Assembly: GCA_021801265.1 (NCBI GenBank)
Contig: JAJYYE010000001.1
Span: 434,001 to 498,000 of the forward strand
Reading direction: 5' to 3'
DNA: 64,000 nucleotides
DNA from: Pseudomonadota bacterium
GTDB taxonomy: Bacteria > Pseudomonadota > Gammaproteobacteria > Halothiobacillales > Halothiobacillaceae
In this document: piece by piece, positions 11,543 to 17,736 of the stretch
How positions within the stretch are numbered: position 1 is the first letter of the stretch
Layout of the letters: every line of letters begins with the position of its first letter
The notes under the pieces: generated by a model
The model's input: only the letters and a program-made list of their open reading frames with translations
What the model was told of the DNA's origin: nothing
The model's database searches: none
Translations under genes and position numbers: made by a program

Positions 11543-11626
11543 GACTGCGATAATCGCGCGCAATATGCGCCGCGTCATAACGCGGCGCGCCTTGATTTTC
11601 TGTATAGCGTCTCCTTGGAAACCCGC

Positions 11627-13315
11627 ATGAAACCTGTTATTGCTTTAGTTGGCCGTCCGAATGTCGGCAAATCCACCATGTTCAACCAAATGACCCGCTC
11701 GCGCGCGGCCTTGGTCGCTGATTACGCCGGTTTAACCCGTGACCGGCAATACGGCTCTGCCCAATATGAAGGTCGCGATTTTATCGTGATTGATACCGGC
11801 GGCCTCACCGGCGAGCGCGGCGGTATTGAGGCGCTCATGCAAGATCAAGCGTGGGCCGCCATTGAAGAGGCCGATTGCGTGGTATTTTTGGTGGATGCCC
11901 GCGCAGGGTTAACCATGGCCGATCAAGAAATTGCTGAAAAACTGCGGCGCACCAGCAAAATCATGCAACTGGTCGTGAATAAAGTTGATGGCGTCGATGA
12001 ATCCTTGGTACAAGCCGAATTTTCTCGACTGGGCATTGGCGAACCCGTATTCACCACCGCCTCGCACGGGCGCGGCATCAGTACCTTGTGGGAAGCCGTA
12101 GAGCTGAAACTCGCCGCGAAATTCCCCATCACCGATGCAGAACCCGAATACGACGAAAAAACCATCCGCGTCGCGCTGATTGGCCGACCCAATGTCGGTA
12201 AATCCACGCTCACCAATCGCTTGCTTGGCGAAGAGCGGGTGCTGGCCTTCGATCAACCGGGCACCACGCGCGACAGTATTTACATCCCGTTCGAGCAAAA
12301 CGGCAAGTTTTACACCCTCATCGACACCGCGGGCGTGCGGCGGCGCGCGCGGGTTAATGAGATGATCGAAAAGTTCAGTATTGTCAAAACCCTGCAAGCG
12401 ATTGAAGCCGCAAATGTGGTGATTCTGGTCTGCGACGCACATGAAGGCGTGAGCGAACAAGACCAGCATTTGCTGGGCTTTATCCATGATCGTGGCCGCG
12501 CGCTTGTCATCGCCATTAACAAATGGGACAACATGACCGATTATGCCCGTGCGGAAGTCAAACGACAAATCGACCTCAAGCTCGATTTCATCAATTACGC
12601 CGAGATGCACTATATTTCGGCGCTGCATGGGACCGGCGTGGGTAACTTGTTTGAAAGTGTCGATACCGCCTATGCCGCCGCGATGCGTGACATCAGTACG
12701 AACGTGCTCACCCGCTCGCTCGAAGCCGCTGTATTTGCGCATCAACCGCCGCTGGTGCATGGCCGCCGGATTAAGCTGCGCTACGCCCACCAAGGGGGCA
12801 GCAATCCGCCGATTATTGTGATTCACGGTAAACAAACCGACCGCCTACCGGGCAACTATTCCCGCTATTTGGAAGGCTGGTTTCGGCGCGAATTTCAACT
12901 GATGGGCACGCCAATTCGACTCGAATTCAAAACCGACAGCAACCCCTTTGAAGGCAAGTTTGATAACCGCACCCCGTTGCAACGCTACAAAGAGAAAAAG
13001 GAAGAGCGCCAAATTGCCGGCATGAAACGCAAATCTGCCGCCAAGGCCGAACGCAGCGCGCGCATGGAAGCCGCATCCGGCCAAGCCCCCAATAAAGCCA
13101 GCGGAACCCCAGCGGCTAAAGCCGTGAAACCCGGCACTAAAACACCAGCACGTCCTGTGGCAAAAACAGGCACAAAAACCACCAGCAAACCCGGCGGACG
13201 CAAAAGCGCGCTCACCGCACGGCCAGCAGCCAAACCCGCGACCCGTGCCAGCGCCAAACCAACCGCCGGGCGCAAACCTACGGGCGGGCAAAGTGGACGC
13301 AAAACCGATCGTTAA
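11627..13315 (+). CDS. der: ribosome biogenesis GTPase Der
   Basis: Der (EngA) is an essential double GTPase in 50S subunit maturation. Two G domains are clear: G1 motifs [13 protein letters not shown] (about residue 9) and [13 protein letters not shown] (about residue 185), with DTGG and DTAG G3 motifs and NKVD and NKWD G4 motifs. A KH-like domain follows to about residue 445. The ATG at 11627 has GGAA six bases upstream. At 562 residues it is about 70 longer than E. coli Der. The excess is a Lys/Arg/Ala/Pro/Thr-rich low-complexity tail from about residue 455, probably disordered and RNA-binding. Confidence 0.96.
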
Positions 13316-15558: not shown

Positions 15559-15868
15559 AAACCCTGCGCCCCTAAAATACGCTGACGGCAACCTGCCGTG
15601 CCATTGAATGTTGGTCATGATACGTGCCTTATGCTGACTTGGCGCGGTTCAATGAGTGGCATCCCATCAATGGACGTCGCGGCAAGCGCAACCAGAAATA
15701 CACGAAAGATGACAGATATCACGCCACCCAACATACTACGAACCTGATGCAGGGCATTCGGTGACCTCGCTCGGGGAACGCCAACACAATAACGAGGTCC
15801 CATGACACGATCGCCGAACGCTTTTACTGCAGAAATGCGGACATAACAACGTGTACAGAGGAGGGAAT
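15559..15868. other. divergent intergenic region rlmJ / phosphoesterase
   Basis: These 310 bases separate rlmJ (-) from the phosphoesterase gene (+) and should hold promoters for both. Short open frames exist on the - strand, one of which ends overlapping the upstream ATG of the rlmJ frame. None has a convincing ribosome site or a recognisable product. I see no RNA gene or repeat. Confidence 0.4.
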
Positions 15869-16417
15869 GTGGATCTTGAATCACAGGCATCGGTTTGCGT
15901 CGGAATCATTTCCGATACACATGGTGCGATTGAGAATCCCATCCTCGTGCTGATGCAGCAGTGCGATGTCATCGTGCATGCGGGGGATATTTTGGACCCC
16001 GATATTTTGCGCCGCGCCACCCCGAAATCGGGCCACATTATTGCGGTGCGCGGAAATAACGATACGGCCGAACAGTGGCCGCGGGGCACGGCGCGTTTGC
16101 TCGAATCCCTCCCCGAAACTGCCCTGCTGAAGTTGCCGGGGGGCGTACTTGTGGTTGAGCATGGCCATCGCGTCAATCCCGCCCATCAGCGCCATGAAAA
16201 ACTTCGCGCGCGACACCCCAATGCGCGCGTGATCGTGTACGGCCATACCCATCATCGTGTTGTTGACACCCAAGAGCCCATTTGGGTGCTCAATCCGGGG
16301 GCGGCAGGCAAAGTGCGTGCGTATGGAGGGGCGGGTTGCCTTGTGCTTCATGCCACAGCAGCGCACTGGTGGGTGGAAGAAAAAACCCTCTCCACACACG
16401 GCTCGAATTCGGCATAA
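15869..16417 (+). CDS. YfcE/MJ0936-type metallophosphoesterase
   Basis: This is a small calcineurin-like phosphoesterase. The metal-binding motifs are complete and in order: IISDTHG, HAGDILD, VRGNND, VEHGH and YGHTHH. Members of this family act as phosphodiesterases on small substrates; the true substrate is not predictable here. GTG 15869 is preferred because AGGAGG lies at 15859-15864, giving 182 residues. GTG 15851 upstream would place the ribosome site inside the gene. The ketohexokinase-Rieske gene starts 47 bases downstream on the same strand, so the two may be co-transcribed. Confidence 0.87.
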   Translation: MDLESQASVCVGIISDTHGAIENPILVLMQQCDVIVHAGDILDPDILRRATPKSGHIIAVRGNNDTAEQWPRGTARLLESLPETALLKLPGGVLVVEHGHRVNPAHQRHEKLRARHPNARVIVYGHTHHRVVDTQEPIWVLNPGAAGKVRAYGGAGCLVLHATAAHWWVEEKTLSTHGSNSA

Positions 16418-16464: not shown

Positions 16465-17736
16465 ATGGCAATTATTTTGGGCATCGGCATTGCCACCCTC
16501 GATATCATCAATGAAGTGGATCACTATCCGAGCGAGGACAGCGAGCAACGCGCCCTCGCACAGAGGCGGCGCACGGGCGGCAATGTCACCAACACGCTCA
16601 CCGTGCTGCGCCAATTTAACCACCACTGCGCGCTGGCCGCCGTACTCACCCAAGATACCAATGGCCAGCTGATTCAAGAAAAACTCAGCCAGCGTGGATT
16701 GGATCTATCATCCAGCCACCGCATCGGCTTTGGTCACGCGCCGACCTCCTATATCACACTCAACCGCAGCAACGGCAGCCGAACCATTTTGCACTATCGG
16801 GATTTACCTGAACTCGACCTCAATGCCTTCCTCAAAATTGACCTGACACCCTTTGATTGGCTGCATTTTGAAGGGCGTCACTGCATGGATACCGCCGCAA
16901 TGCTGGCCCTGGCCCGCAGCATGAGTGGCACGCGAACCTTGTCACTGGAAATTGAGAAAGAACGCCCCTTTCTGGCGCAGTTATTTACGTTCCCCGATGT
17001 GATTTTTTTCTCCCGCGCATTTGCTGAAGGCCGAAACTTTACCGATCCTGAGGCCTTTTTAACCCAGGCACATCGTTGGGCACCGCAGGCCGTGCTGGTA
17101 TTAGGCTGGGGAGACGCCGGTGCGCATTGGCTTGAACCGCAAAACGCCATCGTGCAAACCCTGCCCAGCCAGCCCATCGCGCACGTGGTGGATAGTATTG
17201 GCGCGGGCGACACCCTGATTGCAGGGATTATTCACGCACGGCTGCATCAAACCGACCCACATACCGACTGGTCACACGCGGTTGAGTTCGGCGTGCGCTT
17301 GGCTGAACGCAAAATCCAACAAATCGGCTTTGATGGCCTGGCACAGACCGAAGATACTGCCGCAAAGCCCCTCTGCCATTTAGATGACTTAGGCCCGGCA
17401 GATGCCTTGGGTGTGCTGCCGGTCAATGGCGTGCCCAGCATGATTTTGGTCCGTACGGGCAAAACGCTACGCGCATTTCGCAATGTTTGCCCACATAATG
17501 GCTCGCCACTGGCAAAAACCCAGCGCGGTTATCTCGTGAATAAACTCGATGACATTGAGCTGCGCTGTGCCGTGCATAATGCGCACTTCGAGCTGGCGGC
17601 GGGAGCGTGCACACAAGGCCCTTGTCCCGGCACCCATCTTCAGGCGGTACCCATCCGCGTCACAGGTGAGCATGTTTTTTTAGATGCCACACCTGAAAAA
17701 CAAGAAAGGGCAAAAGCAGAAAATCCTGGGGCCTAA
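16465..17736 (+). CDS. ketohexokinase-like PfkB sugar kinase fused to a Rieske [2Fe-2S] domain
   Basis: Residues 1 to about 295 form a PfkB-family kinase. The pattern is specifically like animal ketohexokinase: VDHYPSEDSEQRALAQ followed by GGN, the SNGSRTI strand, DWLHFEGRH, LEIEKERP and the catalytic signature DSIGAGDT, then a closing GFDG. Residues about 300-420 form a Rieske domain with both ligand pairs, C-x-H in CPHNGSPL and C-x2-H in CAVHNAHFE, 23 residues apart. So a kinase that would phosphorylate fructose or a similar ketose carries a potential redox cluster. ATG 16465 gives the normal kinase N-terminus; GGAG lies 12 bases upstream. The combination is unusual. The substrate and the purpose of the cluster are unknown. 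Confidence 0.88.
   Translation: MAIILGIGIATLDIINEVDHYPSEDSEQRALAQRRRTGGNVTNTLTVLRQFNHHCALAAVLTQDTNGQLIQEKLSQRGLDLSSSHRIGFGHAPTSYITLNRSNGSRTILHYRDLPELDLNAFLKIDLTPFDWLHFEGRHCMDTAAMLALARSMSGTRTLSLEIEKERPFLAQLFTFPDVIFFSRAFAEGRNFTDPEAFLTQAHRWAPQAVLVLGWGDAGAHWLEPQNAIVQTLPSQPIAHVVDSIGAGDTLIAGIIHARLHQTDPHTDWSHAVEFGVRLAERKIQQIGFDGLAQTEDTAAKPLCHLDDLGPADALGVLPVNGVPSMILVRTGKTLRAFRNVCPHNGSPLAKTQRGYLVNKLDDIELRCAVHNAHFELAAGACTQGPCPGTHLQAVPIRVTGEHVFLDATPEKQERAKAENPGA

Follow-up and report, generated by a model that had tools for sequence, protein, structure and literature searches.

In human ketohexokinase the fructose hydroxyls are hydrogen-bonded by Asp15, Gly41, Asn42, Asn45 and Asp258 (PMC2651755). Alanine at Asp15, Asn42 or Asn45 inactivates the enzyme, and changes at Arg141 and Lys174 weaken it (PMC11332825). 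The protein described here has a kinase half that aligns with the human and mouse enzymes at full length and has the same fold and the same fructose-contact and catalytic residues, but the solved animal chains stop at the end of the kinase domain without a Rieske domain, whereas the fused protein carries one. E. coli sulfofructose kinase YihV and ribokinase also have the PfkB fold in common with this half, at an identity of only 15–22%, a much weaker resemblance than that to ketohexokinase. For the other half, the closest described systems are NirD and the Rieske ferredoxins of ring-hydroxylating dioxygenases (BphA3, CarAc), which have CxH...CxxH ligands and a small ferredoxin fold in common with it at only about 20–25% identity. 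The kinase-partner Rieske group sets itself apart from them by the cysteines of a GxCxxGPC motif and by its position, attached to or beside a kinase. To our knowledge, no described small-molecule kinase carries a Rieske cluster.

The fused gene lies on the + strand at positions 16465–17736 of the window (the whole 64,000-nucleotide stretch of DNA that was analysed). It is a single open reading frame of 423 amino acids, from the ATG at 16465 to the last stop base at 17736, in which a ketohexokinase-type PfkB kinase is followed by a Rieske [2Fe-2S] domain. The initial annotation had claimed this single-chain architecture and had called for a search for PF00294 and PF00355 in one chain. Both domains were found above their gathering cut-offs: PfkB at residues 7–288 (E 3.3e-21, 76.4 bits against 25.8) and Rieske at residues 302–390 (E 4.2e-11, 43 bits against 20.3). 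The AlphaFold model of the fused protein has a mean pLDDT of 93.6 and a pTM of 0.81. Tested against NCBIfam, the protein scored under the cut-off for every named PfkB subfamily and for NirD, including FruK TIGR03828 (37.9 bits, cut-off 292) and the NirD equivalog TIGR02378 (26.5 bits, cut-off 74.65), so automatic annotation would probably give it a generic name.

The kinase domain, delimited by alignment to ketohexokinase, spans residues 4–292 (16474–17340, + strand). Over these residues it matches mouse ketohexokinase among solved structures with an E-value of 8e-47 and the human enzyme with about 1e-44, while ribokinase, the next family, reaches only 1e-4; the family assigned at first reading is thus borne out. 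The modelled kinase half superimposes on human ketohexokinase 2hqq with a TM-score of 0.93, and Foldseek ranks 1–21 for the modelled fold are all ketohexokinase. Residues D13, G39, N40, N43 and D249 correspond to human D15, G41, N42, N45 and D258 of the fructose site, R138 and K165 correspond to human R141 and K174, and the anion-hole motif GAGD lies at residues 246–249. All seven residues are invariant in the 38 fused kinases checked, with glycine or alanine at G246 of the GAGD motif, and the same active-site residues are nearly invariant in 49 tandem and 95 unlinked kinases.

The Rieske domain (residues 302–390; 17368–17634, + strand) was assigned to the Rieske ferredoxin/NirD type from PF00355, a profile match to Rieske ferredoxins and Foldseek. 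Modelled alone (pLDDT 94.6) it resembles Rieske ferredoxins and NirD, and Foldseek returned the NirD and BphA3 ferredoxin folds; its scores fall under the NCBIfam NirD and ferredoxin cut-offs. The ligand set is complete, as had been predicted. On the + strand, the first cluster-binding box, CPH (17488–17496), supplies Cys342 (codon 17488–17490) and His344 (17494–17496), and the second, CAVH (17566–17577), supplies Cys368 (17566–17568) and His371 (17575–17577). Both boxes are invariant in a 54-row alignment of fused and separate Rieske partners. So is the GxCxxGPC motif 3' of the second box (17602–17625, + strand), whose two extra cysteines, Cys382 and Cys387, are kept in 54/54 rows; judged from this alignment, it is a hallmark of the kinase-partner Rieske group. 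The full CxH...CxxH set is present in 87 of the 89 distinct Rieske partners, the other two being cut by contig ends. On this pattern, the Rieske half probably assembles a [2Fe-2S] cluster. Besides the fusion, the same genome encodes four further Rieske-domain proteins (C3, C5, C7 and C9).

The fused frame was present in all 10 genomes of the same genus that were searched, the nine others at 62–74% identity. Searched genomes from the rest of the family had it too, with a single exception. Because the frame is kept so widely, a sequencing frameshift joining two genes could be ruled out. Two same-family matches contain an internal TGA, one at full length (G010) and one in a contig-limited match covering residues 1–318 (G026). 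Halothiobacillus and Guyparkeria are among the named relatives that carry the fusion, and the source of the window is very probably a Halothiobacillus-like bacterium. For a within-genus comparison (L002/L003), Ka was 0.056 and Ks 0.443 in the kinase half, and 0.078 and 0.725 in the Rieske half. Both halves are under purifying selection, with Ka far below Ks.

To count the architecture across genomes, as had been proposed, 369 genomes of the Gammaproteobacteria were sampled and flanks of about 9 kb were fetched where contigs allowed. The kinase is encoded in 102 of the 369, so a family described at first as best known from animals is in fact common in this class. Four of the 102 loci were left out of the linkage count because their flanks could not be judged. 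The flanks of the other 98 could be read: the kinase is fused to the Rieske in 9, followed directly by a Rieske gene in 30, directly preceded by one in 1 and without any in 58. In the 30 tandem loci the Rieske domain begins 11–98 bp past the kinase domain on the same strand. Rieske matches of the partner group in the fetched flanks are nearly all adjacent to the kinase, the exceptions being one 726 bp away (L106) and a trivial low-scoring match (L086). On the kinase tree, which counts label changes only, gain and loss alike, the fused label needs 5 changes, of which well-supported branches force at least two. Fusions occupy about four places: Halothiobacillaceae, the Thiomicrospira/Hydrogenovibrio/Thiomicrorhabdus group, L079 and L198. 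Kinase and Rieske form a recurrent unit of two genes, and the fusion is one version of it; this is new here. In the literature library searched, no paper dealt with the pair or used the phrase "bacterial ketohexokinase".

Kinase and Rieske occur together in 59 genomes (odds ratio 3.4) and are fused or adjacent in 39 of these. The genome-wide association is due to the linked cases, as unlinked kinases did not co-occur with the Rieske more often than expected (odds ratio 1.2, p 0.54). Neither protein needs the other, since no Rieske lies near 58/98 kinases and a Rieske of the partner group occurs in 76/267 genomes that lack the kinase. The pair is favoured, not obligatory. Stand-alone kinases of the same clade (L016–L019, L044) are 42–50% identical to the fused kinase and have the same active-site residues but, unlike the fused gene, have no Rieske nearby. 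At an E-value of 1e-25, 94 genomes sampled from the phylum gave no match except the source genome's own. The search of named genomes turned up one candidate labelled Thiobacillus (L107) and one labelled Spirochaetaceae MAG (L113), neither with a Rieske nearby.

A YfcE-type metallophosphoesterase gene (15851–16417, + strand; TIGR00040 above cut-off, PF12850) ends 47 bp upstream of the fused gene on the same strand, and the two genes are likely co-transcribed. The initial annotation had pointed to this close neighbour, which might act on the kinase product, and it holds the upstream place in 11 loci. All 11 are in Halothiobacillaceae, and YfcE was therefore rejected as a general partner of the kinase. 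Outside this family, kinase and Rieske are found side by side in many unrelated settings. There adk lies upstream in 10 loci, and in 32 the upstream gene encodes, by clustering, a large protein of the cyclic-nucleotide-binding/rhodanese/FGE-sulfatase kind. Three of these large proteins were run against Pfam, which found cyclic-nucleotide-binding and rhodanese domains in 3/3 and FGE-sulfatase in 2/3. No single upstream partner is common to all kinase loci, different genes recurring in different groups; the constant feature of the neighbourhoods is the kinase-Rieske pair itself.

The giant upstream proteins (L152, L176, L181 and other tandem loci; for example L176:10155–15209) are about 1600–1880 amino acids long where whole. 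Each has a pair of cyclic-nucleotide-binding domains and one rhodanese domain, and an FGE-sulfatase domain often follows at the C-terminus; many are from sulfur oxidisers. By eye, a similar giant gene adjoins a solo Rieske in L236 and L243. The presence of such a gene before many tandem pairs hints at a regulatory operon. Unlinked kinases have a different recurrent neighbour, a protein of about 100 amino acids with CxxC motifs encoded just upstream in 29 loci; among the 58 unlinked loci of the sample, 18 have it. These proteins (L017:5448–5750, L018:7047–7346 and 27 other loci) have CPRC and CxxC motifs and hydrophobic segments, and the two examples tested matched no Pfam family.

Fused or as neighbours, the two genes turn up repeatedly in CO2-fixing and methylotrophic Gammaproteobacteria, suggesting that sugar phosphorylation may be tied to redox state. 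The best explanation, which we hold tentatively and at somewhat less than even confidence, is a ketohexokinase-type kinase with a redox-modulating Rieske module, seen here in the fused form of the pair. We prefer it because both domains are complete and under purifying selection, the linkage recurs, 87/87 untruncated partners keep the cluster ligands and the kinase is associated with RuBisCO. Weighing against it are the frequent occurrence of kinase and Rieske apart from each other, the lack of excess co-occurrence beyond direct linkage and the uncertainty of the fructose assignment set out below. The substrate of the kinase half would be a small ketose, most likely D-fructose, phosphorylated at C1, and the Rieske-ferredoxin-type [2Fe-2S] module would sit C-terminal to it via a short linker. 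Some redox partner would set the oxidation state of the cluster, which would in turn modulate the attached kinase, so that ketose phosphorylation would be tied to the redox state of the cell.

Of the single purposes that the fusion might have, redox control would be the likeliest, with a tethered electron carrier close behind. Under this second reading, a possible though doubtful one, the Rieske half would be a ferredoxin for a separate oxygenase or reductase and the kinase would have no redox control, the two being fused or co-transcribed since they serve the same pathway. The closest folds and sequences, those of dioxygenase Rieske ferredoxins and NirD, do belong to carriers or redox subunits. 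Many genomes also keep the Rieske though they lack the kinase, at times in seemingly the same place, beside the same scaffold-type gene or adk; in L236 and L243 it stands, as judged by eye, beside the same kind of upstream gene with the kinase missing between. However, the recurrent neighbours of the pair included no conspicuous oxygenase or reductase gene, and repeated fusion to the kinase itself exceeds what co-transcription needs.

Genome content was examined for the metabolic setting of the kinase. A RuBisCO-family gene is present in 94/102 kinase genomes (odds ratio 26), sucrose-phosphate synthase in 61/102 (odds ratio 11) and sucrose synthase in 37/102 (odds ratio 7), statistics that are only partly corrected for shared ancestry. 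RuBisCO and sucrose synthesis each retain an effect on kinase presence with the other held fixed, and in genomes that have RuBisCO the kinase is still predicted by sucrose-phosphate synthase (odds ratio 3.7). The link to sucrose-phosphate synthase also survives when families are counted instead of genomes (39/55 versus 14/127 families). The source genome itself has sucrose-phosphate synthase, sucrose-phosphatase and neutral invertase genes, which lie on the window's own contig about 90 kb ahead of the window, so free fructose should arise. In this region (L267:5808–10403) sucrose-phosphate synthase is fused to a phosphatase domain, and a second sucrose-phosphatase and a GH100 neutral invertase lie side by side with it. 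Matches to sucrose synthase in this genome were below cut-off only, the best being sucrose-phosphate synthase.

The residues and gene content point to D-fructose, phosphorylated at C1, as the most likely substrate. This assignment is uncertain because of two features of the source genome. It encodes no second protein above the PfkB cut-off, so a 1-phosphofructokinase of the PfkB type that could use fructose 1-phosphate is missing, and its one ROK kinase close to bacterial fructokinase could handle fructose instead. For these reasons the substrate may be another ketose. We consider it rather unlikely that the kinase acts on a non-fructose ketose from CO2 fixation, in Calvin-cycle salvage of, for example, ribulose, xylulose or sedoheptulose released by phosphatases, a reading that fits any hypothesis for the Rieske half. 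The missing 1-phosphofructokinase and the tighter link of the kinase to RuBisCO than to sucrose-phosphate synthase argue for it, whereas the exact conservation of the fructose-contact residues, the predictive value of sucrose-phosphate synthase within RuBisCO-positive genomes and the fructose that neutral invertase would release argue against it. Sucrose recycling as the sole explanation is weakened by the stronger correlation with RuBisCO and by the ROK kinase.

It is improbable that kinase and Rieske are merely co-regulated in an operon without functional coupling and that their fusion is a neutral outcome of adjacency. Kinases and Rieskes are each often found alone, and in G028 the Rieske start follows the kinase stop immediately and in frame (TAA ATG), so that losing this one stop codon would be enough to join the genes. 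Against this, the linkage persists across widely differing neighbourhoods and the fusion throughout whole families, and neutral fusions would be expected to be lost again. That the fusion is a frameshift, misassembly or chance motif can be dismissed almost entirely, given identical architecture in independent assemblies from many species and several genera, the Pfam E-values of both domains and the low Ka in each half.

Since the fusion is conserved and recurs beside two-gene forms, regulation of a sugar kinase by an Fe-S cluster is now cleanly testable. If redox modulation is true, the cluster would be a switch whose state turns ketose phosphorylation up or down in chemoautotrophs. The broader proposal, that such a switch couples electron supply to sugar-phosphate metabolism in chemoautotrophs and that kinase and Rieske, sometimes with the cyclic-nucleotide/rhodanese scaffold, form a general module, is speculative and on balance unlikely. 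The kinase belongs to a so far uncharacterised ketohexokinase clade that marks CO2-fixing Gammaproteobacteria, and it may thereby expose a missing step of carbon metabolism in sulfur oxidisers. Elsewhere in the window, a 566-amino-acid open reading frame (11615–13315) looks like a double GTPase of the Der type, with a long C-terminal tail rich in Lys, Ala and Pro.
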